From positions 12,400,697 to 12,464,696 of the forward strand of contig CM055111.1 in assembly GCA_029204225.1 (NCBI GenBank): a DNA stretch of 64,000 nucleotides. The letters are read 5' to 3'. Below the pieces are notes generated by a model, which saw only the letters and a list, made by a program, of their open reading frames with translations, did not search any database and had not been told where the DNA came from. The DNA is from Diphasiastrum complanatum. Its lineage: Eukaryota > Streptophyta > Lycopodiopsida > Lycopodiales > Lycopodiaceae. Made by a program: the position numbers and the translations under genes. Shown here one piece after another: positions 8,346 through 63,728 of this stretch. The stretch's first letter is position 1. Each line of letters begins with the position of its first letter.

Positions 8346-8426
8346 CTATGGTGCATTTCTCTGACCCCCTCCTGTGATTGGAATTCCACTAGGGTGGACT
8401 CGTGTTGTTTGCTTAGTCTGCACCAT
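8346..8426 (-). pseudogene. Histone H3-like N-terminal tail fragment (27 codons)
   Basis: On the minus strand the frame begins MVQTKQTTRVHPSGIPITGG and stops after 26 residues. Seven of the first ten residues match the canonical H3 start MARTKQTARK, including the TKQT around lysine 4. The nucleotide sequence from 14 bp upstream of the ATG (TGATCCGATATTGGATA) through the GGG run matches the 5' end of the H3-like gene at 21323. The histone fold is absent. The fragment starts 182 bp inside what should be the 3' LTR of the minus-strand copia element ending at 8608, so it may have been captured by or inserted into that LTR. Confidence 0.6.
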
Positions 8427-12825: not shown

Positions 12826-13316
12826 CTGCTATGATACCATGTTGGAAGAAGGGAAGACTATAAGATAGTGATGAAATCGAAGTATAACAACAAACTCTTT
12901 GGCTCTACGAAATAATCCTTCTTCTAGTATATGACTACGTCTATAAAAACTAAACAAAGCTATCGCAACAATCATCATGTTTGTTCTTTTTAGTAACTAG
13001 CTTTGAAATTATTAGTACTTAAGTGATTGTGAACAAGTTGAAATTGACAGATATAGAATACTACAGTATTGAAACATTTGACAATTTAGACTAATCAATA
13101 AGAGATTTAACTGATACAAATAACTTCAGAGAAGCTTGCAAACATTTCAACATGATACTGAACGCAATAAGAAAGTATGATTGATTTAGTAAGTAGCATC
13201 TACAAATCAGATAATGTGAGTAAAAGGCAATAACAGATGAAGCCGCGTACTCTAAACTATCTTTGAGTAATCGATAACTTTGTTTGATACACTTTCACCA
13301 ATAAGCAATAAGTACC
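12826..13316 (-). mobile_element. Minus-strand LTR with initiator-Met-type primer-binding site
   Basis: On the minus strand, 12826-12839 reads TGGTATCATAGCAG, a near match to the plant initiator-Met tRNA binding site. Just upstream on that strand the sequence CTTCCAACA ends at 12840 and the 477 bp to 13316 form the likely 5' LTR. They contain a TATA-like TTTTTATAGACG near 12940. The right edge (TGGTACTTATTGC on minus) coincides with the point where homology to the H3-like gene begins, so this LTR probably cut off the N-terminus of that gene. No matching second LTR in the window. Confidence 0.55.
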
Positions 13317-15333
13317 ATCGCCTCGTCCACCACCACCTCCTCCTAGGCCAAGGGGCAGAAGAAGAGACTCACCCTGGCTCAAGGATATTCAAAAGCTACA
13401 GAAGACTAATAATCTTTTGATTCTGAAAGCTCACATACAGAGATCCATCAGACAGGTAATAGTAAGTCTATCTGTAGATGTGAGATGGACTGTAACGGCA
13501 ATAGAGACGCTGCACACTACATATGAGGATTTCCAAGTGATTTTTTTTTTCAGATACTATTGTTGCAGCTGTCCATGCCAAGAGGGTGACCATCATGCCC
13601 AAGGATTTCAACATTGTGTTCAGGCTACAGGACACATATGACAAATTTGCAGAGTACTTTAGACCTGCTGCTCCTCTCCTCCAATACAAGATTCAGAGAG
13701 GAGAAAACGAAAGCAATCTCAACCATCTTGGCCTGGTTTTCGTATACAGAACGAGTGTGTTTCAAAGACGAGGAGGTCTCATGACCCTCCTAATAAAGTG
13801 AGGGATTTTTCAAAGTCATCTCCTCTAGATGAGATTCTATCTGCTAGGCAATCTTCTCCCAAGTCTCCTCCTAAGTCTCCTTCTTCTCCTCCCAGACCTC
13901 CATTTTTATCTTCTCCTGCTAAATCTTCCTCTCCTAATAAATCTCCTCCTCCTTCAAAATCTCTGTCTCCTCCTACCCCCATAAATATTAGTTCCCCACT
14001 CTTGTTCTAGGAAATGATTTAGATGATTTTGTAAATGTAAAGGTAGAATCAATTTTGAATGACAATTTTTTTGTGGTTTATCTGTATTACTTCCGTCACC
14101 CCCTGCACTTGCCTTTGTAAATACTCCTCAATATGTACAGTATGACCAATAGTTGAACACATATCTTAAAGCTTTAGGTTCTAGATACAGTTTTAAGATG
14201 CCGAAGACCAATGCTGGTCTTCCTCTTTCTAAATTAGATACATGTGAATTAGAAAGTAGGGACAAAATGCTAGGTGACAATGTAGGAGGTGGGGCAATTC
14301 AGTACTGGATGGAGATTTTCCAGACCTCATTGTTTATAGATGTAGCATTGTTTCCCCTTCAATTCATGGCTGCATTTGATTTCCCTAATTTCAAAAGTCT
14401 GCACAATGATATGCTCCAATATGTCAAACTAGGGACTTCAATTCTCGTGCTCCCATACATAACAAAGTAAGTGTTTTTTTTTTTTCAGATTTTATTAAGT
14501 TGAATTTTTCATATGAATTTTGATTTCACATTGATTCTCATAAATTTATTGTTTTCTTATTGTAGTGATCATTGGAGGTTATATGTGTTGTCCTTATACG
14601 TCAATGATGAGGGTGTGTGTAATTCAGTTTGTTTAAAGATGAACTCTATTACACACACACACACACACAAAATTGCCAGGAGCATTATCCAGAAAATACT
14701 AGAACTCTTTCTAGTACCAAATGCAATAGCATATACGAAGCTGAAAATTGTTGATGCAAAGGTAAAAATTTATCAATATCGGTTCACGTGCCCTTGTAGT
14801 TATTGTTTGGTTTCTTTTCAAATCATGGACACTGATCCAATATTCAAACAATATTTGGTTCGATGCACGCTCGTTTCCGTTGTAGATTTTATTATAACAT
14901 CTTGCGCGTTGATTCGATATCTCATAATATTAAAATTTGGATACTACAGTCCTCCCAACAGGTTGATTCTTCTATAAGCTGTGGTTGGTATACGGTATGC
15001 AATGCCAAACACTTTTTCAATTGGCTTGCACTACATGATGGACTTCCTAATCTTAAAGAGGTAATCTTCGATTAATAACATTTAATTGTGTTTTTGTTTT
15101 TTTTTTCATAATCAAATTCCTAATAACTAATCTTTGATTATTAACATTTAACTGTGTTTATGTTTTTTTCAGTTTAAATGCCCAAAAGTCTCCCCAATGG
15201 AGATAATGCACTTCAGGCTGGAGACCATAAAGCTTGTGATCGAAAATTCATATCCAGTTGCAGTGGCAAGAGTGTTCTCCACCCAAGCTACTTCCAACTG
15301 GAGAAATGAATTTAGAGATCATAGATAGTTGAT
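13317..15333 (+). pseudogene. Gene D: histone H3-like domain joined to Ulp1-type (C48) cysteine protease
   Basis: Four parts follow on one strand. First, a proline-rich tail then an H3-like histone fold (WLKDIQKLQKTNNLLILKAH, later VHAKRVTIMPKDFNIV), starting without its N-terminus at 13317. Second, a Ser/Pro-rich linker (about 13800-14010). Third, a segment like LGNDLDDFVNVKVESIL, echoed in the copy at 34.7 kb. Fourth, a Ulp1-like domain: substrate-helix region DKMLGDNVGGGAIQYWMEIF, an intron at 14467-14565, NDHWRLYVL with the catalytic His codon at 14570, a Gln in SSQQ, and the Cys in SCGW (codon 14980-14982). The final exon starts near 15173 after TTTTTTTCAG. Defects are visible: an extra base in a T run at about 13541-13551 breaks the histone fold, a frameshift and stops occur near 14060-14150, and the acidic triad residue appears as Asn (MNSI). 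It faces gene C tail-to-tail. Joining histone and protease in one gene is inferred from order, strand and the shared linker. Confidence 0.7.
14653..14669 (+). repeat. (AC)8 microsatellite inside the Ulp1 exon
   Basis: An ACACACACACACACAC run lies directly after the MNSI codons of the protease domain, encoding THTHTH. It is in frame with the exon here. Length variation at this site would shift the frame between the His and Cys halves of the active site. Confidence 0.8.
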
Positions 15334-15992: not shown

Positions 15993-17333
15993 CTATGGAT
16001 CTTCAATTTCGATGGATGTTCCAATATCTTTGCAGTTTATATGCTCTTCTTGCCTTACTGTTATCTGCACAAGAGAAATTGTTTTAGGTAATATATTTTA
16101 TGAAACTGATTCACTGAGAAATAGAAAAAAAGGAATATTTTTATATGGCATAACGTACCTTTACACCATTCAATCGAAATTGATAGTACTGAGGTAGATC
16201 GAATTGCAACATGTCTAGTTCTAATCGAATGCGATTGAGACACCAATCTTCCTCGACCTCAACCATTGTAAGAATGTTGTCATTTCTTTTCACTATTATC
16301 TGAAGTTGCTCTTGAGGGTTTATACCAAAATCTTGATCAAGTGGCTTCCAAATATTTTTGCATTTAATCCATCTTCTATAATACAGCAGCAAAGTGAACA
16401 TTTGTTTTTCGATGTGATATCTAAATGTCATGGATGAGTAACATACTCTACACTCAACTTGTTGATTTTGTTTTGTATCCCAACCATCATCCAACAACTC
16501 GACGATTATTTCAGCACTCAAGTCCTTACAAGTAAACATTGTTTTTGTTCTCCGAATATGCATTTGGAAAAAAAAATCAACAAAAGTAGTAAAAGGTAGA
16601 TACCAACTTAATCTATTATTCTTTGATCCAGTGCTACATTTTTATATACTCTGAATATCAATATATAGCCTAGATCAAAAACTTTTCAAAAATGCTGCAT
16701 TAGGAGAAATCCATTCCTCACTCAAAAAATATGGTAGAGGATATGGCTCTAATCTACCAACTAAATTTTTTTTACCAGAAAAATAGGTGTGATCATAAAA
16801 GAAAACTCCTGACTCTAAAAGTGATTTTGGAGGATGACCTTTATATTGTAAAATACCAATATTCGAATGTATGACATCGATTATTCCTACAATCGATTGA
16901 ATTGTTTGCCATTCAACAAAATTTGATGAATACAAAAATGCAAAACCAACAAAAACATAACAAGAAAAATATGATTTAAAAAAAATGCTAACTCTAAAGA
17001 AATTAAATCTGAAAACTTACAATTGCATTTTCTTCTATCATTTGGATTCAAATCATGAATGTTGAGCTCATTGTGAAAATAAGCATGCTGAACTAAAACT
17101 TTCGTGATAGATTGATTGGCAGGTAATACTTTAAAATCCATTATCCTGCCTTTCCAAGAGTTTCTATATATGTTATCTGATCTTTTTCAGAATGAGTCTT
17201 TTGTAGAGGGATGCATCAAGGTCCATTGATATTTTTGATATATTCTTGGTATCCATTGATCTTCTGCATTTTTTTCATTGCAAATATTGATTGCATCAAT
17301 GGTTCCTCTTGGTTTCCAATTATGTGTAGCCAT
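15993..17333 (-). pseudogene. Gene C (copy 1): protein with C-terminal ubiquitin-like domain
   Basis: Minus-strand exons are recognisable by comparison with the copy at 18126. Exon 1 starts ATG at 17333 (MATHNWKPRGTIDAINICNE) and runs through NQSITKVLVQHAYFHNELNI to about 17020. Exon 2 follows after an intron of about 100 bp (GIIDVIHSNIGILQYKG, later YPLPYFLSEEW). The third part is at 16563-16159 (LDDGWDTKQNQQVECRVCY, SSMTFRYHIEKQMF, then TMVEVEEDWCLNRIRLEL). The last exon is 16064-15993. The last ~70 residues read like a beta-grasp ubiquitin-like fold: two opening strands, a helix (CLNRIRLEL), then YYQFRLNGVK and a closing strand, with no terminal Gly-Gly. The middle region is unknown to me. 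Frameshifts occur in exon 1 and around 16570-16680, so this copy is broken. It is convergent with gene D. Confidence 0.6.
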
Positions 17334-18125: not shown

Positions 18126-19081
18126 ATTTATATCCATCATGCATAAGTGAATGGGAGCCCGCAAAATTACTTGCAGGAATATTAGACGTGATTCACTCTG
18201 ATGTTGGAAAGCTACAATACAGAGGAAGAAGTCCAAAGGAACTTGCAAATTGTGGTATCTATTTTTATGAATCTTTATATATGCCACAAACAGATGGAGG
18301 TTTTGGCAAGCTCGAAGCAATTCCATTGCCTAGTTTTCAAAGTGATGAGTGGCCTACTCCTGACAGCATTGTTTTTGAATCCTTGAGATGCAAGCTACTC
18401 ATTGATATTAAAAATTCTATGAAGATAAGCACAGGCTCAAAAATTGTTCACCTAAGTTGGTTTATCTCATTGCATACATTTGTTGATTTTTTCGAGAGTG
18501 CTAGTGTTCGTGGGACACCAACTTTATTTGTTTGCAAGGATTTATAAGATGAGACTTTGTCAGATCTCATGGATCAAGGCTGGGATAGTAAAACAAATAA
18601 TGACATAGAATGCATGATTAAAAAGTCCTCAATGACCTTTCGTTATCATATCGAAAAGCAAATGCTCAGTCTCATATTTAGCTACCAGAGATACAAGAAA
18701 ATTGAAGGTACATGGCTACCACTGGATTAAGACTTTGAACTAAATGGTCACACAAACCGAATGGAGATAAGCATTATCTATAATGAGGAATATTTGACTA
18801 TGGTTGAGGTGGAAGAGCACTGGAAGCTTGATTTTATCAGAACATAGCTCATGCTATCACAAACCAATCTACCAACATATTTCAGACTTATCATCAACGG
18901 AAGACTCGTAAGTACTTTATGTTTATTGCCATTTCAAAATAGAACAAAATAATAGAAAATGTCATCATTTACAATTGCACATTCACTAATATTTGCCATG
19001 TCATAGATGCGAAAAAGACAAAAGCTGATAACGTGCTGCAAAGATCTACCTACAATAATCACCATTGTGGGAGAACAATAG
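18126..19081 (+). pseudogene. Gene C (copy 2): protein with C-terminal ubiquitin-like domain
   Basis: The exon opens after TTTCTTTCAG at 18126. It carries LLAGILDVIHSDVGKLQYRG, FVDFFESASVRGTPTLFVCK, SSMTFRYHIEKQMLSLIF and TMVEVEEHWKLDFIRT, then a GTAAGT donor at 18908. The last exon, 19007-19081, continues the frame (MRKRQKLITCCKDLPTIITI, then VGEQ and TAG). Residues from MEISIIY to IITIVGE follow the ubiquitin pattern of strands, helix, FRLIINGRL and a closing strand, again without a Gly-Gly end. Three in-frame stops interrupt it (about 18545, 18728 and 18847), each one base from Gln or Glu codons. The first exon seen in copy 1 is missing; a transposase fragment stands in its place. Its stop is 196 bp from the end of the opposing gene D copy. 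Confidence 0.6.
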
Positions 19082-19276: not shown

Positions 19277-19620
19277 TTAATTTAGTACAACTACATCATC
19301 CTTTGCACCATCATCAATAACGGGAGGCTGAAGCCTTGCCCTAGCCAGTATACTCAGGATAATTTCTTGTCTAAATCTGTACACCTGGCTTGATGTGTAC
19401 TCAGGAAGTGTAAACTGGAAAATAGAACATTCATGTACTAGTAATGGCCAATAACATCACCAGAATAGAAAACTAATCATGATTCCAAAATAAGAATAAA
19501 CAGAATTTATTACCTTAGAAATATCAACATCTTGTTGAAGGATGAACCACTCAAAAAACAACTTGGCATTGTACAATGTGTACCACCCACAGCTGAATGA
19601 ATCATTTTGCTGGGGTGACT
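19277..19620 (-). pseudogene. Gene D (copy 2): Ulp1-like protease C-terminus
   Basis: Minus-strand reading QSPQQNDSFSCGWYTLYNAK continues LFFEWFILQQDVDIS, an intron, and FTLPEYTSSQVYRFRQEIIL up to a stop at 19277. This aligns with the gene D end at 14947-15075 and its last exon (SSQQVDSSISCGWYTVCNAK). The Gln and Cys of the C48 active site are both present. The histidine half and the histone-like part are not in this window: a copia fragment begins at about 19741. It is convergent with gene C copy 2. Confidence 0.65.
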
Positions 19621-21322: not shown

Positions 21323-21781
21323 ATGGCGTGGACAAAGCGAACAACACGAATCCACCCTGGTGGAATCCCAATCTCAGGTGGTGGTCTGGAAAATCCACCA
21401 CCACCGCCTCGTCCACCACCACCTCCTCCTAGGCCTAGGGACAGACCAAGAGACCCTGTTTGGCTGAAGGATATTCGAAAGATACAGAAGACAAATAATC
21501 TTCTGATTCTGAAAGCTCATATATAGAGATCCATCAAACATGTTACAAGAAGTCTATCTGCAGATGTGAGATGGACTGTAATAGTAATTGAGGCATTGCA
21601 CACAGCATATGAGGACTTTCAAGTAAAATTTTTTTCAGATACTGTTGTTGTAGCTATCCATGCCAAGAGGGTGACCATCATGCCCAAGGATTTCAACATT
21701 GTGTTCAGGCTAAGGGACACATATGACAATTTTGCAAAGTACTTCAGACCAGCTGATATCAAATCTTTAGCCATTCAATGA
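21323..21781 (+). pseudogene. Gene D relative: full H3-like histone domain with one in-frame stop
   Basis: The reading frame has 152 codons from ATG at 21323 to TGA at 21779-21781, interrupted only by TAG at 21524-21526. The start MAWTKRTTRIHPGGIPISGG resembles the H3 tail MARTKQTARKSTGGK. A proline-rich segment with two runs of five or six prolines follows in place of the usual tail. The fold region reads WLKDIRKIQKTNNLLILKAH, then ADVRWTVIVIEALHTAYEDF, then AIHAKRVTIMPKD, which matches canonical H3 exactly over 13 residues. The paralogue at 13.4 kb has CAG (Gln) where this copy has TAG. After FRPADIKSLAIQ the frame ends and no protease part follows, so the 3' side is truncated or rearranged. 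Confidence 0.75.
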
Positions 21782-22485
21782 CGGGTCATGCTTGGAGAGT
21801 TGAGATTTTCCAAACAAACATGCAAATTGCTTTTATAAATGTTTAAGTTCAACATTTGATTTTCCAAAAGCAAATGCGGCAACATCCAATAGTAGGACAA
21901 CTAATTAGGTCATCAATCATAATGGATAGTGAGCTGGCGTCCATCCAAAGTGAGCTGGCATCCGTCTAGTTGAATCTTCCTAGAAATTTTGTAGCTTCAA
22001 TTAAGGCGAACAATAAGCTATCTTTCACCCGACAAGATATTTGTCAGACCATGCCCGAACTTTTATAAGTCAGATCCACCTGTGAGCGATTCTTGTGTAC
22101 TTCTGCAGACTGTGTAGAAACACGAAGAAAATTGCAGGTCTGGATAGTGAGTTGGACAAAGAATAAAATGTCGATTAGTCGATTAGTAGGAGAACAATCC
22201 AATATCTTAGAGTGTAGATCCAGATCCATAGACTAGAGTAGTTGCCGATCGAGACCCTTAAATAGAACGAGTAGATAGGCTAAGCCCGATTAGATTTTCT
22301 TAGCTAGTTAATGGTGACCGGGATAGAGTGGATAGTTAGATATAATTCATCTTAGTTAGCCTAGAAAGATAATTTTTTTGTTAGAATAGACTTAGCCAAG
22401 CTGAAACTTAGGGTAGACGTAGATCGACCTATACTTAGAAGTAGCAGATCGTGATCCTTAGATTAACCTAGCAATTGACCTTGAC
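21782..22485. other. No supportable gene
   Basis: The stretch has scattered stops and short internal repeats such as GTGAGCTGGC(G/A)TCC(A/G)TC (two copies near 21930-21965). I see no domain or element end. Confidence 0.4.
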
Positions 22486-26199: not shown

Positions 26200-28426
<2,227 letters not shown>

Positions 28427-28429
28427 ACA

Positions 28430-30340
28430 TTTGTCTTTCAATAGAAGGCCATAAAGTTCCATCAATTATGTACTCAAATATCTTAGAGATTTCTCTTGCA
28501 TCATGTGAACGAGAGAAGAAATGAGATTTGTCTTGCATCATGTGAACGAGGAAAGACGTGAGATCAATTTTTTTTAAAATTTTTTTAGCTAAGTTCTCAT
28601 TGTGCATAGTAGATTTTTTGGATCTAATGAGTGTTTATGACTCAATGCTTACCAAAACTCCCTAAAGGCTCAATTGTGCTCACTCATGGAAAGATACTAA
28701 CGTTTTTTTGAACAAATAAGCACATCCATTTAGATGGAACAAAAGAAGAGAGAGAATAGGACTATGCATGACTCAATGTTTACGAGATAATTTTGCTTGA
28801 AATATATAGGTCTTTAGATATTCAAAAGAATGTTGAGAAAATATTGATTCTTAATTTTTATTGGAGAGAATACGAGAGAGCAAAGCAAAATTAAGTGATG
28901 GGGTAGGGGTAGCAGCTATATCAACTTCTTGGATTTATTTTTTCCAAAGAGGTTTGCATTCTATTTCCTTTTCCTTGAGGGTGTCTCTCCAAAGGTGGGG
29001 ATGCTAGAATATGGAATTTGATTATAGTGATTCTTTTGTTTCTTGATTATGGGACAATCTTTGGGCGTTATGCTAACTTTTTTACTATAGTGTTTAACAT
29101 ATCACACATTGGAAAACTATAATCTAATAATATTTATAAGTAGTATGCAATGTCCCAATACATCACGTTCTCAAATACTTGGCATATAGCTTTTGTACAA
29201 TGCTAAAGAAAGCACTTCTTGAGAATAAAAGATTTATGCTTTGACGAAATTCCTTGATGTCCCTTGATCTTTGACCTTGTGGAAATGTATGGGGACCTAT
29301 TCATGCTTTAGGATGAGCAACCTCGGACCTGCTTGGTTCTTTGTATCATGTATCAATACAAAGGACATGGTATTGGAATGACACGAGATACTAAGAAAAA
29401 GACAACACAACTTGTGTTGCAGCATTTCCAAAAGTCAAGGATGGGAACATTATCATGCTATAGTGACATTGGGATGATTATACAATTGTCATTTAGCGGC
29501 CGAATTGTCTTGGTAGTGCCGTAGATTTAGCGCGGTGGCCCAAGAGAAACTCTACTAGACTACCACTGATGGTTAAAGCTTGAAACCTGACAAGGTTGCC
29601 CACATATGGGCAGAAACATATTCAGCAAACTATCATAAATCTCTTGACCATCTAGGGCTTTACTTTAAGCAGCAGGACAAAAAATGTCTTAGCACCAAAG
29701 GTATGCACTTTTTTTGGGAGGGTATACTGTTGTACATGGTTTCATTAGCTTGGTTGTAGCGGAATTTTCCAGTAGTAGTGCTAAAGTACATGAGGCTATA
29801 GTTGACTTTGTGGTTGAACTTCATGTAGTTAATGGTTTCCATTAGTTTTTTTTTTTGTTCGAATACTATCTTGGATCTAACATCGATATATGCTTCCGTC
29901 AAATTAGTGAGCATACAATTCTCCGGACTCCCTTAACCTCTATCACTATCGAGTAAAGATAAGCAGGATTTGCTCTCTGTTTGCATGGTTGGGAAGTTTT
30001 TGTTATGCCTGATGATCAACATACCCAAACTGCTGCTTGCAAATTAATGACACCCAATTTTCACATCTAGTTGTGGCACGTCTTTTAGCCAATAACCTTT
30101 TACATGTCGTTGAAGACATTCTCTCCCTGGTTTTAAAGACACTCCACTTTGCATGCAATACCTGATTATTATGTTTAAAGCTTGACAGGCTCTTTCCGAA
30201 ATTTGTATGTTATTCCCTTCAAAATTTAAATCAGAAAGACATGCGAAGTTTGGTATAAGAGTAGTGTGTTAAGGGACTAGAAAATTTTCAGCCAGTACTT
30301 CTGTCATTTTCTGAGAAGATGTCTATGAGTAAATTTTACA
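28430..30340. other. No supportable gene
   Basis: A 63-codon frame at 29333-29524 (plus) and an 84-codon frame at 29660-29914 (minus) have no motif I recognise. The stretch lies just upstream of the first visible SIN3-like exon; I looked for further SIN3 exons (PAH repeats or the HDAC-interaction region) and found none. Confidence 0.35.
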
Positions 30341-30353
30341 TTGTACTATACAG

Positions 30354-33275
30354 GGCTGTTAACTGAAGTTAAGCAGAGAAATGAGAAAAAGAGGAGGGAA
30401 GATGATACAATGCTCCCAATCCCTGTTGGAAATCGCAGACCCCTCATTCCTGATATGAATTTTGACTATCCTGATCCTGGTATCCATGAGGACCTATACC
30501 AAATTGTCAAGTACTCTGTGTATCAAGTATGCGATACTATGGAGGAATCCAATAAAGTAATGCAGATGTGGACAAATTTTACTGAGCCAATGTCTGGTGC
30601 GCCTACGCGTCCCCATGGTGCTGAAGATATGGAAAAGCTACCAAAGTAAAAGCTCCCGATTCAAAGCAAAGTAGTTCTAGTGCTGGAGAAAGCGCAACAA
30701 CAGGTGGAGCTGAGGGTACGGATAAAGCTGCAACTCAGCTTGCAGATGGTGCGGAGCATAGAAATGTTGTCAGTTCTAATAATGGTATTTTCTTTGTTGG
30801 AGCGGCAAACTATCCATTGGGACAAGTTCTGAAGGACTGCAAATCAAATAAGGACTCGGGGGTCAGGCATGAAGAGCCTGACGCAGATGATGCAGACACT
30901 GATGATGAAGTTGAAGAGAGCTTGCAAAAATCTATTGAAGACAGCGAGAATATTTCAGAGGCTGTTGAAAAAGTTTCATGCAGTGCATCAGGTGACAATG
31001 ATGATGCTTCACGTGCGGATCATGAAGAGGAGGATGAAGAGGATGAGGAGCAGGAAGGAAAGGTGGAAAGTGAAGGTGAAGCAGAAGGGATGGCTGATGC
31101 TGAAGATGAAGGAGATGGCTTTTCATTGGCATCTCTTGATCGTTCTCCAGTTCTTTGTAAACCTTTGGCCGTCCATGCTACTTCCTTCGATATTGGGCCA
31201 CCTTCAAAGAACAGTGTTATATTTTACGGGAATGACATGTTTTACATTCTTTTCAAGCTTTATCAGGTAATCTTGCAGTTTGCAATCTGTACAAATATTG
31301 AGATAGCAATTGTAGCAATTTGTTGTGCTTGCGCTTTTTCTGACGTCCCGAGTCTTGATTTTGATGTTTCGGTTTTCTGTTCTTATGTCTCCTACTGTTA
31401 CAAATCAGGATAACTAAAATGAATGTGAAAAAAAGTTGCAATCTTACTTCACTTCAAGGGCTTGATTTGGTTGTTACAAGAAGTTGAGTCCTGCTTCTTG
31501 ATTAGAATACTGAACATGTGTTATCTTTGTACTGAAATTTGAAGACATTTTGCTTTTTCAATTCCCGGCAACGTGCAGACCTTATATGAACGAATTCTTT
31601 CGGCAAAAATGAATTTTATGGCAGCCGAGGAGAAGTGGAAAACATTTAAAGATTAATCCACTCCAGATCTTTATACGAAGTACATACTGGAACTTAGTAT
31701 CCTTTTCATCATGCAAGTACCTGTACATGTCTATTTTTTATAAGGAGTACACCTTTTTAGAGGAAATGTTTAGGTAATGTTTGATTACGACTAGTCGTGA
31801 AGCATTGATTTATTATGTTTCAGAGAATTCATGTAGCATCGGACAGAATAGAGAGAGATAGATGTAACGGAGAGAGAGAACTAATTTTTATTAATTGATT
31901 ATGAGAGAAGAGCGAACTACCCATTACAAGGAGACGATGAGTAGGCGACGTTCTGAGGGATTGCGTCCTTTTGGGACCCAAGTCTCTTTTTTGTAAACTA
32001 GTTATTTTGTGTACGTGTGAAAGCAAACATTACTATCCTTAACAGAATTAGCATTTATAGATTATTCTACTCTGGCTTGAAGGGCTTTTTATTTCTCATT
32101 TGCTAAATTTATGAACGTCAAACAGATTCATGACGGCTCTATACAATTTCCTTGGTGGAATTGATGTAAATGCATGTTTTGAGGACGAGTGCCGGTCAAT
32201 TATTGGGCCACAGTCCTACATTTTGTTTACTCCTGACAAGTTAATACTCAGACTTGTGAAGCAGGTTCGAGAACTTCTCATATCTGTTGTTTTTCTTATT
32301 TTTATGGGATCTTTTGAAGAAAGTGTCTGCTTAGTACTGTTCACTAAGTTTAAGTGAGCTGACCAGATTTGCTGAGTTTAAAAAAATATTTTGCAGCTTC
32401 AAGCAATTGCTGCTGATGAAACGGCAAATAAACTTCTATTGCTATGCACACATGAGAAATCACGTGGAGCTTGTAGGATTATTGACATTGTTTACCATGC
32501 AAATGCATGTGTTGTGACACTCCATGATGAGAGCGTCTTTCGATTTGAGCATGTACGTGATATGTATATTTTCTCTAATGACAATGTTTCTGCTTTCTGT
32601 CTATCTCATCTTACATGTGCGAACATGCGAATTTTTGTGACAACCGAAAATATGCCCAGTGAATTATCAATTCAGCTAATGGAGGGATCTGAGAAATTGG
32701 AGGTTCCGGCAACTATTATTGATTATCCTTTCCAAAATTACTTGAACGATTACTTGCTCTCAGTGCCAGAGAGGAAAGATCGTCATCTTGTTTTTGCTGA
32801 AAGGTAGCTTCAGTGTTTTGCTTGGTGTCTCATAAATTCTAAGACATTGAATGAACCACCTTTGTTTGTTACTAATCAGCTCTCTACTTATCCGCAGAAA
32901 TAAGCGCAAATTCACAGATGACAAGGAAAGTGAAGCTTTTATGAAGGCAACAAGAAATGTTTACGTGGTGAATGGTTTGGGGTGCAAGATAGATTGTACG
33001 ACCACCAAGGTTTATCCTTTTTTCTAAGACTTGAATTTGTACGATCATCACATTAGACACCGTGTATATGTAGGTGAAAGATAGTGTGAGGAACTCTTGT
33101 TTGAAGAAAAATGTTTTTGTTTTACTAAATAGAATGTCTCTGCATTCTCTGCAGGTCTCATATGTCTTTGATAGTGAGGACCTTCTGTAGAGAAGGAAGT
33201 GGCCTAAGATCGTTAATTCTCTTCAGGTCAATAGTGGGCTCCGTAGCATTTCCATGATGTGTGGTTCTAGTACAA
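30354..33275 (+). pseudogene. SIN3-like transcriptional corepressor, C-terminal exons (broken)
   Basis: SIN3 is the scaffold of histone-deacetylase corepressor complexes. Exons: 30354-31266 (NRRPLIPDMNFDYPDPGIHE, an acidic linker, NSVIFYGNDMFYILFKLYQ), 31579-31696 (TLYERILSAKMNFMAAEEKW), 32126-32264 ([20 protein letters not shown]), 32397-32803 (LQAIAADETANKLLLLCTHE, then LSIQLMEGSEKLEVPATIID), 32898-33009 (KATRNVYVVNGLGCKIDC) and 33155 onward (VSYVFDSEDLL). All borders are GT/AG. Order and motifs fit the SIN3 C-terminal domain of plant SIN3-like proteins. Defects: a one-base frameshift near 30640, TAA at 31654-31656, and TAG at 33188-33190. The PAH repeats and the histone-deacetylase interaction region are missing upstream. 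The clean intron structure shows a DNA-level copy, not a retrocopy. Confidence 0.85.
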
Positions 33276-34691: not shown

Positions 34692-35375
34692 ATGGCTAGG
34701 ACTAAATCCACTACCTGTGCCAGACGCTCTGTACATCCTTTCCATGCCCGTGTCCCTCTTGGAACTAGCCGACGACGTGGTAGGAAGCAGGTCTGGCTGA
34801 GGAAGACCAAGAAACTTCAGAGATCAACTAAATTGTTGCTTCCAAGAGCTCTCTTTGGCCGATCTGTTAGGAATGTCACCCTGTCGCTTGGGCTAAATGT
34901 TCGTTTTGTTGTGGCGGCCATGCAGGCCTTATAGAGTGCGCTGTAGAGGACTATATGTCCCATTTTTTGACAATTCCATTTTTCTTGCCCTACATGATAA
35001 GCGTGTTACCATCATGCCCAAGGATTTTGTAATTCTCAAAAGACTTCGAGACTGTTATTCAGGGTTTCACGGTGGATAACGCCAGCACCTCCAAAGATCT
35101 ATTGCCTCTGGATAGATCAGACATGCCAACTATCTCAAGAGGGAAGATGAAGCAAGTTGTACCTAAAAAAAGCTGCATCTCGTAGGCTAGTTGCTTCACT
35201 TCCTCCGAGAGTCATCCCTGCAAAGGGACCTCGTATCGTCCTGATCACCGAATCAACGTCTTTCGACTCTGAATCACAAACTTCTCCTCCTCCTATTACT
35301 CGTCAACATCATCAGAAGGTTTCTTCACCAAAGGTAGAGATAACCCAAGAGGAGCTTGACAAGATAATAGAATAA
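34692..35375 (+). pseudogene. H3-like histone gene with canonical MARTK start, gene D relative
   Basis: The frame opens ATGATGGCTAGG and reads MARTKSTTCARRSVHPFHAR, a close copy of the H3 N-terminus around lysine 4. The fold follows: VWLRKTKKLQRSTKLLLPRA, VRNVTLSLGLNVRFVVAAMQ, then (other frames) LEDYMSHF, FFDNSIFLALHDKRVTIMPK and DFVILKRLRDCYSGF. After about 120 codons comes a basic and Ser/Pro-rich segment (PRIVLITESTSFDSESQTS, PPPITRQHHQKVSS) ending EITQEELDKIIE and then FVNIVSTSILN. This matches the linker of gene D at 14020 (DLDDFVNVKVESILN). A stop at 34932-34934 and two frameshifts break the second helix. No protease part follows: the downstream ORF at 35768 is different. Of the copies here its tail is nearest to true H3. 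Confidence 0.75.
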
Positions 35376-35767
35376 TTTGTAAATATTGTCTCGACATCCA
35401 TTTTAAACCCTATACATAACCTTTTTTGTAGAATCTCATACGATCCTTGGTAGACATATTTTGATTCTAACCATTATAATGAATATGAATCTTATTTAGC
35501 TAATAAAATTGGGTGATCATTTGCATTCACGAGACTTTTTTTTTGTTTTGAGAGTACATGATGCATGACCTCCCTTTTTTTTTGAGAAGATTCTATTGTT
35601 ATTCTTTAGAGGTGAGCACTAGCATCTATCAAAATTGCTCACGCTTTTTGTGATACGTATTCTAAATCACAATGTGCATGCATATCTATTTTATTTACAA
35701 AAAAATATTTACAGTTTTATAGTTATAGCTTTAGTTTTCATCTGAGAAGAAGACATCGCCTCTACAA

Positions 35768-36127: not shown

Positions 36128-36892
36128 TAAAGTTTGTATTCTCCATCACTTGGAACTATGCCATAGATCACATTCTGTAGACACATCAAAGAAACTTGTT
36201 AGCAATTGAGCTATGAATATAACTTAGTTGACTTAAGCTATGAATAGAACTTAACAATGAAATTTAGGGTTAAAAATTACTCACAAAATAATCATTAAAA
36301 TGTTGTTCCCCCCTGAAGCAAAGATGATTGATACTATTCATGGTCAGTCTTACTCTTGCTACTTCCTTATGCATGTCATATTTATGGGGGATTTTCCTAA
36401 ACCCACTCGTGAGCGAAGTCCAGAAAAATGCAAAAATAAGCTTGGTAGAGGCCAAAAATCTTGTATATAGATAAACACACATGTGTGGAGCCTGTTCCCA
36501 CGTGTGAAAATAGTGTACTTGTCATGTACCATAATCATATAGGTTGTACATATGATCTAATTCAAGTTCTAGTGGCTAAAAAGGCCAAAAACTAGTTTTC
36601 TAGATATATGACACATGGCATCAATCTATTGATTGCATGAGCCAAATATTTTGGTTAGGTGTCATATCCCATGTGTAGAGGACATCTCACACGTGTGGAA
36701 TAAGTTGAAGTAGGCAAATTTTGAATTCTAAAAGATTTCCAAGTAGATCTCCATATAGAAGGAAAATGGACCAAAAGTGCTCAAAATAGAAGGTTTTGTC
36801 CAAGTGTCAGTTTTGCATGATGAATCATCATATGACAAAGCACCTTCACACATGTGGGATCAGAGGGATGATCAGTACCACGAGCTCCCACT

Positions 36893-36907
36893 TATTGTAT
36901 ATATAGA
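36893..36907 (+). promoter_or_regulatory. LTR TATA box
   Basis: TTGTATATATAGAGCC in the 5' LTR, repeated at about 40831 in the 3' LTR, is the probable core promoter. Several CACGTG-type or CACATG-type palindromes (TCACACGTGTGGAA, CCCACGTGTGAAAA, TTTCACACGTGTGAAA) lie within the LTR on both sides of it. Confidence 0.5.
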
Positions 36908-38849
36908 GCCACATTTGGCCATAATCAATGTGAGACACCAATCTTGGTTTTGGAAGCAATTTTGAGTGATTCTCTCCATTTGTCTACATTTGTTTTGATT
37001 GTTTTGAGGTTCTATCAATGTGTACTTGATTTTCAGGTTGGAGTCCGTACTCAGACAGTGTTTCACACGTGTGAAACCATTAAGTACACTTACCTTCAAT
37101 TAATGATTGTTCTTGTTAGGATTTTGTGTCTAGAATTGATCTAGATTGATCTTAATCTGAAGTAGATTGATAGTTCAAGTAATCTGACAACCAATCCCTC
37201 TTGAGGATCAGATTAGGATCCACTCTTGGTCCTTTTTGTACTTTTTTGCACATGGTATCAGAGCCTAGTACAAGAGGTTTTGTTGAAATTGATAGGGTTA
37301 AACCAAATCAAGGCCAAAATTAGCAGTTTTTTTTGGAAACTAGTCAAATTTTGTGTACCGAGTTGGATTTGATAGCTATCCTCAAAATTTTTGGTCCAAA
37401 TCTTGTTGTGGGCTGTAGGAACTCTTTTCACACGTGTGAGGCCGTACAGCTCCGATTTTGACTGATAAATTTCAAAAATTTGTAGAGTTTGACTCACATA
37501 CCCAATTTGAGTGATTTTTGGTGCAAAATCAAGCATTTTCTATAGAGAATCTAATCCCTTAATTAGTTTTTGGATTAGATCAGACAAAAAATTAAATTTG
37601 AAGCTTGAATTAGGTGGATTAATTGACTATCTCTGATTTTTTGAGTGCATGTTGAAGTTAAGAGAGATTTTGCTAAAAATCATAGATTAAGGAGTGATAT
37701 GCAAGGTGAGAGGTTGAAATCCATTGTACCATCACTCTAGATTTGTTCAAGAGTGATAGGGTCAAGTTTAGAAGCATAAATTTGCTAGAAAACATCCTTG
37801 GATCTGTTCTCCAAGTGAAACCTTTGAGAGTTTCTAGTGCATATAGAGCATCTATGCAAATCTTTTGTAGAATTTGACATAGATTGGCTTCAATTGAGAG
37901 TTCTAGAAAAGAGATTGAGATCCAAGTCACATTATTCAATCCTACTCAATTTGTTTGAGTGTTTGTGAGGTTTGAAAAGATTCATTAAGGTGTCTATGGC
38001 AAATGTGTAGAGAGAGATCCAATTTTCTAAGAGTTCCTTCCTTTGTAGAGGGCAAGATCTAGCAGCTCCTTTTGAGTTGTTATTGGTGGAGAATTTGTCT
38101 TCTCCTAAGTGATCAAATCTTTCTAAGTGACATTAGCTCTTTGAAGCACAATATCTTAGTGAGAAGAATCACAAATTTTGATTTTGAATTTCATTCCAAG
38201 TCTTAAAAGGTAGAGTAATTGGTGGAATCCAATAGGAGTGATTGAATTCAATTTGTTGAGCAAAAATTGACATAGTATGTATGAAACTCAAATTAGTTCT
38301 ATTCAACTTTCTTTGTGAGAGTGTGAGGGTCAATTTGTGATCCCATTGGATGTCTAGAATGAGGAGTCCATATTTGAGTATTCATGCATGGTTGAGATCT
38401 TTGTGAATCTCTAGTTGTCTAATTTTTAAGCTTTGTGAAAATTTGGTGGTATGGTTTGTTGTCAAATCAAATCAAATTCATTCTAAATCTCAAGTGTGAG
38501 ATTATTTGGGTCAAAATTGAGTCCAAAAGAAGTGATTAAGTTTTATTTTCATGTATTTGAAACAAAACCCATCTTTTGTTCAAGAATCTCAAGTGTTGAG
38601 AAAACTAGTCAAGTGAAAAGGAAAATCTAGGTGTCAAATCTTTTTCATATTCATTTCAACTTTCAAAAGAAAAAGTCATTGGTATTTGATGAGTCCAATA
38701 GGAGATTGGATCTGATTTCTTTAGTGATTTGACTCAAAGATTGTGTGCTTTTGTCTTAGTGATCAAAGCAAAGTTTCCAAGTGACTAGTCATTATTGTGA
38801 AGATTGATTCTTAGGTTTGTGAGCTAGACTTTTTGTAGATCCTTCTAGA

Positions 38850-40220: not shown

Positions 40221-41193
40221 TTTCAGATCAACATCAAGCTCATTGGCTGATCTTCACACCTTTTGAACCAACAAAGACCAATTTAGCCTATGGAGTCAAG
40301 TTCAAGATCATCATGTTTTCCATCAAGCTAGATTTACCAAGCTAGACTTTTTAGGAGTGTGAAAAATGCAAAAATAAGCTTGGTAGAGGCCAAAAATCTT
40401 GTATATAGATAAACACACATGTGTGGACCCTGTTCCCACGTGTGAAAATAGTGTACTTGTCATGTACCATAATCATATAGGTTGTACATATGATCTAATT
40501 CAAGTTCTAGTGGCTAAACAGGCCAAAAACTAGTTTTCTAGATATATGACTCATGGCATCAATCTATTGATTGCATGAGCCAAATATTTTGGTTAGGTGT
40601 CATATCCCATGTGTAGAGGACATCTCACACGTGTGGAATAAGCTGAAGTAGGCAAATTTTTAATTCTAGAAGATTTCCAAATTGATCTCCATATAGAAGA
40701 AAAATGGACCAAAAGTGCTCAAAATAGAAGGTTTTGTCCAAGTGTCAGTTTTGCATGATGAATCATCATATGACAAAGCACCTTCACACATGTGGGATCA
40801 GAGGGATGATCAGTACCACGACCTCCCACTTATTGTATATATAGATCCACATTTGGCCATAATCAATGTGAGACACCAATCTTGGTTTTGGAAGCAATTT
40901 TGAGTGATTCTCTCCATTTGTCTACATTTGTTTTGATTGTTTTGAGGTTCTATCAATGTGTACTTGATTTTTAGGTTGGATTCCATACTCAGACAGTGTT
41001 TCACACGTGTGAAAACATAAAGTACACTTACCTTCAATTAATGATTGTTCTTGTTAGGATTTTGTGTCTAGAATTAATCTAGATTGATCTTAATCTGAAG
41101 TAGATTGATAGATCAAGTAATCTGACAACCAATCCCTCTTGAGGATCAGATTAGGATCCACTCTTGGTCCTTTTTGTACTTTTTGCACAGTCC

Positions 41194-47521: not shown

Positions 47522-48479
<958 letters not shown>

Positions 48480-58108: not shown

Positions 58109-58738
58109 ACTTTACAGCTATGTATATGGCTGTATAAAAAGTAGACTCTACTTTAAGGGAGAGAGTTAGAATGAAAGTAGAATCACCGTGTTAGTGTACT
58201 ATGGGTCCTATCAGTTGATAAGAATTAATTGGCCTCGCCACGAGGCGAGTCGACGGGACACGCGTCCCGTCAACGGCAACCTGGGTCATGCATGGGTCGT
58301 CTGAGTGAAGAACTATATGTATAGTGTAATTTCATTTTAAGAAATACAGTTGCTATGTGAGCTTGGTGTGGAGAGTGTTTTTTGTCTGTGTTATTGTGTA
58401 GCATGATCTGTGTTCCTGTTCAAAGCAAATTCTAAGTCTATACTCCCAATGATACTACAAAAAGATCATCTGCAATGGCCCTTTATTTAGGTTACATTGA
58501 CATGAGCAAAAGAAAAAATTTAGAATTTTTGGATCCATATGAAAGTAGATTATTCCTTCATGACAATACCATCCGTCTGAATCTTGAAGAGGATGATGAT
58601 AATTAAACAATTTTCTGTAATAGATTTATGATATATTAGAAGGAACTCTCTTTTGTTATGAACTTGAATGTCTTTCAAAAAATTGTAACATTTGACGAGT
58701 TTTTAGCTTGATATCTAAATTGTGCTCTTCTGTAAAAC

Positions 58739-61440
58739 CACTAAAAAAGTTGAACTAAATATTTATTTCTTAAATTGTGTCCTCCATGATTTGTAGCTCT
58801 ATGAAATGCTCCTCTTGCTTGCCAATGAGATTTTTCCATGCCTTGTGATGACCAGATACTTAAGCTCCCATATTCCTTTGCAAAATAAGCTGCATGATGA
58901 AGAAGGATGTGCTGCAAACAAGAATTTTGATGAGTCACATCAGTAGAAAAATATATAAGCTAGAATGAGATAAGTACCAGATAATGATATAAATTAGCAC
59001 CATGTAATGAGTAATGTTGTCTTTTCTCCAACAATCATGTACAGATTTTACAAATGTGGTGCAATGATTTTGCAAAGTCCTCATATCTTCTGTTGATAGG
59101 TTTTCTTTTCTGATAGCACCTATGAGTTTGTCTAAGTTGGTCCACACTTGTCTCTTTTCCACTCAATTACTTCCTTCTAGTTTTCGTGTTGCTTGAATAA
59201 TTTCTCTCCAAATTTTGTATCTAACACTTGATTCTTTGCACGTGTGATTGGATAAGAATCTTCTTGCTTTAGCACCTCCAAATGATGGCTTATTAAGAAC
59301 ATTTCCTTTTTTTTCGGAGAGTCTATCACTTTTTTTAATCGTGACATTCCGTTTATGTAGTCCTACGTTTGACATAACTATTTCCAACCTCCTAATTGAT
59401 GCTTTAGCCACATACTTCGGTTTATAATTCCATGCTAGTAGAATATGCAAGTAAATAAGTTTTTCAATAATACGAACCTCAGCATGCAATGTGCATATGT
59501 GAACATTTTCTAATGGAATTGGATCTTCAGCTTCTCGTGTTGGGCCAATGTTTGATCGTCCCAAATTCATATTGTAGCAATCCTTCATGCAATAAAGACA
59601 TGGATGCTTTGATGTTGCCTCATGAGAGATATTATACATATATTCTAATGTTTTCAAATCCCCTGCAAGGTGCCATTGAATTTGAAAACTTCCATGATTT
59701 TCGATTGTAAATTTCTCACCCTCTAATTGTCTCTTTATAATCTCGCCATAATTTGTTCTTGAAAATATCCATGAAAGTATTTTATGGTCCTCTTTCAAGA
59801 CCTGTAGTGAAGCAAGTAATGCATGACATGTTAATAAAAATTGGCAAGGTATGAAATGCTAATAACGATATTATAAATGAAAATTGAAATGTATACCTAG
59901 AATGCCACCAACCACCATATGTGATTTTCTGATTGAACACTAAACGTTTGATCATCTGTATCTAAAATTTTGTTCATCAAAGTGACACTCACTCGTTCTA
60001 ACTTTTGACCTTTGATGATTTCAGATTCATCCAGTTTTATTAGAATGATAATCTTTCCATTTACTTGATGTTTTCTAGTTTATAGAATCGAATAATGTAT
60101 TTTAGAACATTTTCAATATCAAGGAAAATATTATTGCAATCGTTGTAATTGAGCTCACTCACCATATTCTGATTTGTATAATTCAGTTATATGAAGTGGT
60201 TGGCCAACTACTTTGAACATTTCGTCATTATAATAATTTCCTGCTAATCTTACCCGATATGGACGCGGAAGATAAGTCTTTTTCACCCTCACTTGGGAAA
60301 AAGCTTCTTTAACTATTCTAAAAAAAGTAAAATAAGCATTTCTACTAATTCCAAAAACATTACATGCACCTTGTATCACATTTGCATCCAAGTATGATTG
60401 AACCTTAATCAAAACAGTCTCTGCAATTTCATTTTTCATTTTTTCAAACCGAGCACTTTTCATCATTTCCTTTGCTGACTTTCTTGTTAACACATGACTT
60501 AAAGATGATCCAATGCATGATCGATCTATTAAATAGTTCTTTGCCACCAAACATGATCTGCAACAAACATAAGAAACCAAAATTATGTTTAGCAAATAAA
60601 TAATTCATGTTATCAAGTGAAAATCAAACTTAAATGACATATACAATCAAATAAACAGTTTACATGAATACCTTCTTTTCTGATTGCCGCTATGTGTAGA
60701 TAAGTCATCAATATTCTTCATCGGTACTCTCTTTCTTTTCTTTTTCATCAGTCTTTTTGATAACTTTTATATCAAACAATAGATTTTAGACTCTTGGATC
60801 GCAACTTTTCCAAGGATTCTAACATTTCTTGGTTTGATCTCCGAAGAGTAGTGATTGTAGCATTCAACTCTGACATAGCATTCTTGAGTGCATTGTTTTC
60901 AACACTAGTGTGTTGCACATAATGAGACAATTGCTGATTTGCACGTTGCGATTGTTGATTAGCAAACTATAATTGTTGATTAAGACAATATATGTTATGC
61001 ATTCCAATATTACACAACCTTTGACAATATCCAAGTAATCCGCTATTTCCTTCACATACGAATCTGAAAAGATGAGTTACGAACTTAAAATCTGGACACA
61101 AATTGGTAGCTGGATCATTAAGATAAATTGATCCATCCACCCACAAATCTATATTCATATGATTATTGATTTTCAATTCTCTAACTATTGTAGCAACATT
61201 GTCTACAACTTGAATTTTTCTTAATAATTGGTGTGCTTTGCATAGGAAGAGCTACATGCAAATGGAATATTGCCATTGTTGAAAGCTACAATCCGTAAAT
61301 GCTTCAAATTATGGTTAATCAACATGAATAGATCTATCATACCTTACTTTTGTAATGTTTATGTTGCATTGATAAATTGTAACGCCTCATATTTCACTAT
61401 AAGCATACAATGATTTCAAAAGTTCTGCTACTCCCACTTC
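58739..61440 (-). pseudogene. Gene B: DDE-type transposase-like protein, multi-exon
   Basis: Minus-strand reading in order: NHMNIDLWVDGSIYLNDPAT near 61150; a probable coiled coil (ANQQSQRANQQLSHYVQHTS, then NATITTLRRSNQEMLESLEK) at 60950-60770; an exon end at QKR|GTATTC (60672). The next exon from about 60563 carries a helix-turn-helix-like segment (ACNVFGISRNAYFTFFRIVK). Then come IILIKLDESEIIKGQKLERV and TFSVQSENHIWWLVAF, an intron, and at 59800 LSWIFSRTNYGE, IQWHLAGDLKTLEYMYNI, KHPCLYCMKDC and CTLHAEVRIIEKLIYLH. The tail is HWQARGAFHRATNHGG and the stop at 58741. KLDES and AGDLK are candidate first and second catalytic Asp sites; the Glu is not certain. The Cys pair fits a zinc-binding insertion. 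TAG replaces Gln at an exon end (about 59894), TGA sits at 59163-59165, and there are frameshifts near 60960-61200. I cannot name the superfamily. Confidence 0.6.
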
Positions 61441-62929: not shown

Positions 62930-63294
62930 TTGTACTAGCTTTCTTGGCTGGTTTTGTTGATGGAAATGAAGCTATTGTAAGTTCATTATATCACCACATT
63001 CGTAAATCTATACATGATTGTTGGGGAAAAGACAACGTTATACATTACATGGTACTGATTTATTTTGTTATATGGTACTTATCTCATCCATGATTATATT
63101 TTGTTTTTATTGATGTTACTTTTTTCAAACCTTGTTTGCAGCACATCTTTCTTCATCATGCAACTTATTTTGCAGAGGAATATGAGAGCTTAAGTATCTG
63201 GTCCCCACATTGGCAAGCAAGAGGAGCATTTCATAGAGCTACAAATCATGGCAGACACAATTCAAAAAAAATATATTTAGTTCAACTTTTTTAG
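62930..63294 (+). pseudogene. Gene B (copy 2): transposase C-terminus
   Basis: The first exon part reads RKSIHDCWGKDNVIHYM (about 62999-63050), followed by an intron and an exon from 63142: HIFLHHATYFAEEYESLSIW, SPHWQARGAFHRATNHGRHN, KKIYLVQLF and TAG at 63292-63294. It matches the last two exons of gene B at 58741-59162 but lacks the SQGMEKS insertion seen there. The rest of the gene is missing: an LTR adjoins on the left. Confidence 0.75.
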
Positions 63295-63433
63295 TGGTTG
63301 TATAGAAGAGCACAATTTAGATATCAAGCTAAAAACTCGCCAATTGAAATGTTACAATTTTTCGTAAGGCATTCAAATTCATAACAAAAGAGAGATCCTT
63401 GTAATAAATCAATAATCTATTACAAAACATTGT

Positions 63434-63728
63434 TTAATCTTCTTCATCATCCTCTTCAAGATTCAAATGGATGGTATTGTCATGAAGGGATAATCTCTTT
63501 TCACATGGATCCAAAAATTCTAAATTTTTTCTTTTGCTCATATCTATGTAACCTAAATAAAGGGCCATTGTAGATGATCTTTTTGTAGTATCATTGGGAG
63601 TATAACCCAATATTTTAATGGCCAAATCCCTTTTCACAATATCTATTTTATATGTTTCTTTGGCATAAGTATGGCCTCCTAAACATATAGATAATGACTT
63701 GATGGCCATAATGCTATATAGTGGCAGC
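63434..63728 (-). pseudogene. Gene A (copy 2): C-terminal part
   Basis: On the minus strand the frame from 63709 reads MAIKSLSICLGGHTYAKETY, KIDIVKRDLAIKILGYTPND, TTKRSSTMALYLGYIDMSKR and ends LNLEEDDEED at 63434. It is open here and gives the uninterrupted version of the site where the copia element sits in copy 1. Homology extends to about 63728 and is then cut by an LTR. The stop codon is 139 bp from the stop of the convergent gene B copy. Confidence 0.75.

Follow-up and report, generated by a model that had tools for sequence, protein, structure and literature searches.

Within the 64,000-nucleotide stretch of the Diphasiastrum complanatum genome analyzed here (hereafter the window, i.e., C20:12400697-12464696 of a 1.745-Gb genome), an H3-like histone fold is followed on the same strand by a C48-like protease. 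At this site, which we call copy 1, both domains are directly visible, as are the order and strand in which they occur and an open protease end of four exons. We read the site as the decayed gene of a mobile element that would have encoded an H3-like fold, a Ser/Pro-rich linker and a C-terminal C48-like protease; the element would also have carried a second, convergently oriented gene (gene B). Judged from sequence, we give this reading a probability of about 0.5. The features are collected in Table 1.

Table 1. Features of the H3-like and protease copies and of gene B in the window (positions count from the first letter of the window; an asterisk in a motif denotes a stop).
Feature	Position	Strand	Evidence or remark
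H3-like histone fold, copy 1	13315-13669	+	PF00125 E 5.8e-18; two tblastn pieces with copy 2 (77% and 86%)
Ser/Pro-rich linker, open frame of 115 aa	13663-14010	+	frame unlike that of the end of the H3 part
DLDDFVNVKVESILN segment	14016-14060	+	yet another frame; DLDDFVNV itself at 14016-14039
C48-like protease exon 1, open	14153-14466	+	in-frame stop just before (YDQ*LNTY)
Protease exon 2, His of NDHW	14566-14761	+	intron 14467-14565, GT-AG
Protease exon 3, SSQQ...SCGW (Gln and Cys)	14950-15060	+	intron 14762-14949, GT-AG
Protease last exon with stop	15173-15328	+	intron 15061-15172, GT-AG
Broken second copy of protease last exon, 57% aa	15761-15892	+	sequence similarity
Gene B copy A, protein of unknown kind, 2 stops	16159-16929	-	convergent to protease; last exon by eye 15993-16064
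Gene B copy B, 3 stops	18149-18901	+	44% aa identical to copy A
Protease Cys-motif exon, another copy, SPQQNDSFSCGWYTLYNAKLFFEW	19538-19618	-	score 90 vs maximum 72 over 150 shuffles; convergent to gene B copy B
H3-like copy 2, tail start MAWTKRTTR, full fold, one TAG	21323-21757	+	PF00125 E 2e-17; up to 66.7 bits for H3 chains in the PDB
Weak protease-type similarity 3' of copy 2, NCFYKCLSSTFDFPKANA	21825-21895	+	score 39; 24/864 windows as good
H3-like copy 3 with tail start MARTK; fold diverged, with frameshift and stops	34692-35067	+	PF00125 E 5e-19, joined read; alignment
FVNIVSTSILN...NEYESYL segment 3' of copy 3	35374-35500	+	score 45; shuffle test negative; 6/864 windows including its own
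H3-like copy 4, tail only, MVQTKQTTRVHPSGIPITGGG, without fold	8349-8426	-	sequence similarity

An earlier note on this DNA had reported an H3-like fold at 13317, followed on its strand by a Ser/Pro linker and the motif DLDDFVNV, and all three are borne out. For the fold, PF00125 yields 65.7 bits (curated cut-off 26.4) once its two frames are joined into one read. These frames (13315-13548 and 13544-13669) are caused by a 1-base insertion within a T run. The fold itself is near-complete, i.e., readable from ahead of alpha 1 until past alpha 3, and AVHAKRVTIMPKD is present at the locus. An H3-type tail was looked for upstream of the fold and not found. Along the one strand, DLDDFVNV follows the fold at about 350 bases and the first protease exon at about 480 bases. 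The frame differs among the H3, linker, DLDDFVNV and protease parts, and a stop stands ahead of the protease.

When spliced, the protease comprises four exons and three GT-AG introns (99, 188 and 112 bases) and runs for 258 codons without a stop before it terminates. Unspliced, the frame that holds 3/4 of the exons contains 8 stops. Splicing also bears on the His motif, which is SDHW in the raw DNA and becomes NDHW upon removal of the first intron. That is, the His, Gln and Cys of the C48 active site occur in order on consecutive exons, within the motifs NDHW, SSQQ and SCGW. The third catalytic residue of C48 proteases is Asp, while Asn occurs in some cysteine proteases; when aligned by eye, the presumed Asp site holds Asn both in exon 2 (KMNSI) and in an additional protease piece (KVNSA; score 77) at 216 kb of the 264-kb region that we obtained by joining the window with 200 kb of flank.

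On the profile level, PF02902 (Peptidase_C48) reaches 14.7 bits (E 0.028) for the spliced protease and 16.8 bits for a first, slightly different splice, both of which are below the curated cut-off of 20.7. For either splice it is the sole Pfam family at E <=1, and the match covers the block from His to Cys. A PDB search with the protease returned a single chance match (E 1.3) and no protease. Given the sub-threshold Pfam match and the outcome of the PDB search, we call the protease C48-like rather than a certified C48 member, a label that is based on the order of the motifs together with the Pfam match. The earlier note had spoken of a C48 protease with these three motifs and had proposed to check both parts against PF00125 and PF02902: the motifs stand (NDHW after splicing) and the H3 folds exceed their cut-off, but the protease stays below its own.

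We also searched the genome with the PF02902 profile, which gave three matches among the 150 of 520 candidates that were scored. From their ORFs, these look like ordinary host proteases. Since the copy 1 protease is absent from the matches, the search provides no measure of its family. The best match (L001 1333-2106, E 1.5e-9) is an open frame of 257 aa and presumably a host NEDD8/SUMO protease.

In total, the window holds three H3-like folds and one tail fragment (copy 4); neither copy 2 nor this fragment figures in the earlier note. Copy 2 is the most complete of them, with the tail start followed by a Pro/Arg stretch and the full fold; its PF00125 score is 64.0 bits (X at stops), and copy 3 reaches 69.2 bits (frames joined, X at stops), again relative to a cut-off of 26.4. 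The 200 kb of flank contain one protease piece and pieces of gene B at two places, with no further H3-like fold. All four H3-like copies of the region are broken, and an intact copy that combines the two domains was not seen there. An AlphaFold model of copy 2 from a five-row alignment (pLDDT 53.6) has four helices at low confidence and is too poor to use. A splice junction was considered as the cause of the break common to 21400, 8349 and 13314 and was rejected, since the edge of copy 4 carries no GT.

We compared the fold residues of the copies with those of canonical H3. Of the 77-78 compared residues, 33 to 35 are identical to H3 in each copy, and 38/77 are common to copies 2 and 3. At the 34 sites where both copies 2 and 3 differ from H3, 13 show the same new residue, while permutation yields 2.8 on average and reaches 13 in 0/10,000 cases. 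Over 83 codons of this pair, synonymous differences are saturated (pS 0.76; shuffled 0.74) and nonsynonymous ones are not (pN 0.34; shuffled 0.72). The comparisons of copies 2 and 3 exclude the alpha 2 stretch in which copy 3 has lost its frame, and stop codons were skipped. For the closer pair of copies 1 and 2, dN/dS is 0.44 (Fisher p 0.014). On these residue and codon statistics, we show the H3-like copies to be one old lineage whose amino acids were kept by selection. Given the shared substitutions, the pN/pS values and the dN/dS ratio, the family would have left H3 once, would have been maintained for long as a protein, and its copies would have decayed thereafter. The same three observations rule out a recent H3 pseudogene.

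They also misfit a neutral decay from the start, as implied if a host H3 fragment had been passively swept into an element by transduplication and had then decayed without function. This would agree with the broken state of 4/4 copies, and excerpts of PMC6710886 describe hAT-borne H3 copies in Pseudocercospora that are all inactivated. Still, the shared derived residues and the constraint at synonymous saturation make such a passive origin highly improbable, i.e., it is already disfavoured. For a viral origin, 22 pattern matches in the viral_contigs collection included 0 relatives, which rules out close relatives in that collection only.

We next turn to the question of whether the H3-like and the protease part belong together. 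The earlier note had argued that their linkage is not a chance neighbourhood, since a DLDDFVNV-type segment also follows the H3-like fold at 35350-35410. The H3 fold meant here (copy 3) is a good one, but the segment reads LDKIIE*FVNIV..SILN rather than DLDDFVNV. As sole proof of linkage, its recurrence at 35.3 kb was rejected given a negative shuffle test: 81/300 shuffles of the stretch 3' of copy 3 reach the best score. The respective test 3' of copy 2 is marginal (39 vs a 95th percentile of 36 and a maximum of 45 over 150 shuffles).

A second assessment used 864 windows, each 600 bases long and drawn from either strand of the joined 264-kb region, without those over copy 1. The protease-type similarity 3' of copy 3 (score 45) is equalled by 6/864 windows, one of which is copy 3's own (i.e., 5/863 others), and that 3' of copy 2 (score 39) by 24/864. 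For copy 4 (score 27), 615/864 windows score as well. The Fisher-combined p-value is 0.0016 for copies 2 and 3 and 0.006 when copy 4 is included, with query and region having been picked after looking at the data. A query with the whole protease does not set copies 2 and 3 apart (79/864 and 449/864 windows as good, respectively). On the DNA level, the stretch 3' of copy 1 matches those 3' of copies 2 and 4 no better than shuffles (38 vs a 60-shuffle maximum of 43, and 43 vs 60). Relative to copy 3 it scores 48 vs 43, in an AT-rich match that is not at the corresponding place. The stretches of copies 2 and 4 are alike (59 vs a maximum of 46 over 60 shuffles). The argued linkage is thus backed moderately, by two of the three other copies, while the copy 3 shuffle test and the DNA-level comparison are negative.

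These negative tests, together with that of the whole-protease query, would fit an H3-like relic of one element having come to lie by chance beside the protease relic of another. Nested repeats abound in the region, the clear protease remnant nearest to copy 2 (at 19.6 kb) is on the strand opposite to it, and the flank holds its protease piece without any H3-like fold. However, a chance juxtaposition leaves the ordered similarity 3' of copies 2 and 3 unaccounted for, as well as the tight same-strand spacing in copy 1, and we regard it as unlikely. From the spacing and similarity patterns, we consider it probable that the H3-like and the protease part descend from a single gene or a single unit of the element.

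That such a unit would have encoded one polypeptide is about as likely as not on the same sequence evidence, copy 1 being broken between the two parts. Two neighbouring genes of one element, transcribed separately and encoding a free H3-like protein and a Ulp1-like protease, respectively, would explain why the parts of copy 1 are in differing frames and why an H3-type start and tail of their own are present in copies 2 and 3. Moreover, fungal hAT elements carry their H3-like gene as an ORF of its own, according to excerpts of PMC3538342. What such a gene pair does not explain is the open Ser/Pro frame, which fills most of the copy 1 gap from the fold to DLDDFVNV; we deem the pair possible, if doubtful.

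Gene B is the third component of the proposed element. Its two copies are apparently intron-bearing and show 44-46% identity over the aligned reads. Over the first 250 aligned codons (stops skipped), pS is saturated at 0.76 and pN is 0.36. Each of the two well-preserved gene B copies has a convergent protease remnant at a distance of no more than about 1 kb (for the second, 19618-19538, minus strand). By eye, the C-terminal part (ILTMVEVEEDW..LPQYYQFRLNG) looks like a ubiquitin-type fold. Pfam provides only weak sub-threshold matches for gene B (best E 0.026; 0.19 in another scan), its C-terminal 73 aa have no PDB match, and its AlphaFold model (pLDDT 33.9) is too poor for a fold search.

Each half of the proposed gene has a precedent in mobile elements. 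H3-like (H3L) genes are known from hAT transposons of the fungi Pyrenophora tritici-repentis and Mycosphaerellaceae (excerpts of PMC3538342 and PMC6710886). The common feature is an H3-type fold that is carried and multiplied by a DNA transposon. Yet, the fungal copies are, as these excerpts have it, near-identical or RIP-inactivated captures of H3, while the lineage described here is an old one that has moved far from H3 and has a C48-like protease behind it. Ulp1 has 0 occurrences in the main text of PMC3538342. In turn, no hAT domain was found in 10 chosen ORFs of the 259 with at least 60 aa in the window or in the H3-like, protease and gene B reads, and no transposase (MULE or other) in these 10 ORFs.

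Ulp1 is carried by plant MULE and CACTA elements (excerpts of PMC13317346 and PMC2528002). Among these are KIU and KAONASHI, i.e., VANC-type genes that belong to VANDAL MULEs and have captured a Ulp1 domain, and the CACTA-ULP elements (PMC2528002). VANC genes with a Ulp1 domain are described as belonging to an anti-silencing system in PMC13317346. With these genes, our site shares the C48/Ulp1 end of a mobile-element gene and a plausible anti-silencing role. It differs from them in the histone fold, since 'histone' has 0 occurrences in the main texts of PMC13317346 and PMC2528002. The domain DUF1985 is shown for VANC in PMC5735166, whose passages on VANC contain Ulp1 0 times; we found no Pfam match to DUF1985 in the H3-like and protease reads. 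A Mutator survey (PMC6446971) has 0 occurrences of ulp, c48 and histone.

Relative to canonical H3 and its variants, the copies keep the histone fold, the loop 2/alpha 3 block HAKRVTIMPKD and, in copies 2-4, an H3-like tail start. In contrast, the RIRGERA end of H3 is replaced in copies 2 and 3 by an RLRDxYxxF extension, and a protease-type region follows downstream. Among open-licence papers, judged by title and the start of the abstract, we found no report of a fusion of histone H3 with Ulp1/C48. The claim that no such fusion has been described therefore stands for the literature searched, with the precedents for each half given above.

If the decayed gene indeed encoded a single protein, its H3-like part might dock on chromatin, with H4/H3 or a histone chaperone as its pairing partner. 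The H3 residues R83 and H113 as well as the KRVTIMPKD block are retained in copy 2, which makes such a pairing plausible. The docked protease could then strip SUMO, or a modifier related to it, at the position of the element and thereby lower silencing. The protein would be a functional analogue of the VANC/KIU anti-silencing proteins, aimed by a histone fold and not by a DNA motif. We propose this role tentatively. A wider version, in which the H3-like/Ulp1-like fusion and gene B form a counter-silencing kit with gene B possibly being the protease's own modifier or substrate, appears quite improbable. Given a real fusion, a transposon would aim a protease at chromatin through its own histone fold, i.e., by a new route of silencing evasion unlike that of the sequence-specific VANC proteins. 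The fungal finding of H3 in transposons would also extend to another lineage, with evidence of long selection.

The window shows further features. Downstream of H3-like copy 3, two direct repeats (36423-37252 and 40361-41189) are 97.7% identical over 830 bases; they probably represent the LTRs of a retrotransposon of rather recent origin and enclose a zinc-knuckle-like ORF. Two arrays with a mostly 8-base period (28221-28474 and 47824-48079) match each other at a distance of about 19.5 kb. An acidic ORF (30625-31410, +) is followed by a second one (32382-32804, +), both without a significant Pfam match (the second has a weak Sin3a_C match, E 0.024), and the two may be a single intron-bearing gene. 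A protease-like window at 59.0-59.6 kb (minus strand, score 57) was dropped, as its alignment is gapped and contains stops. Finally, two long ORFs on the minus strand (59166-59858 and 60158-60604), which have no Pfam match and show an HPCLYCM motif, are enclosed by inverted repeats (58439-59061 and 62992-63604) of 85% identity; ORFs and repeats together are possibly an undescribed DNA transposon.
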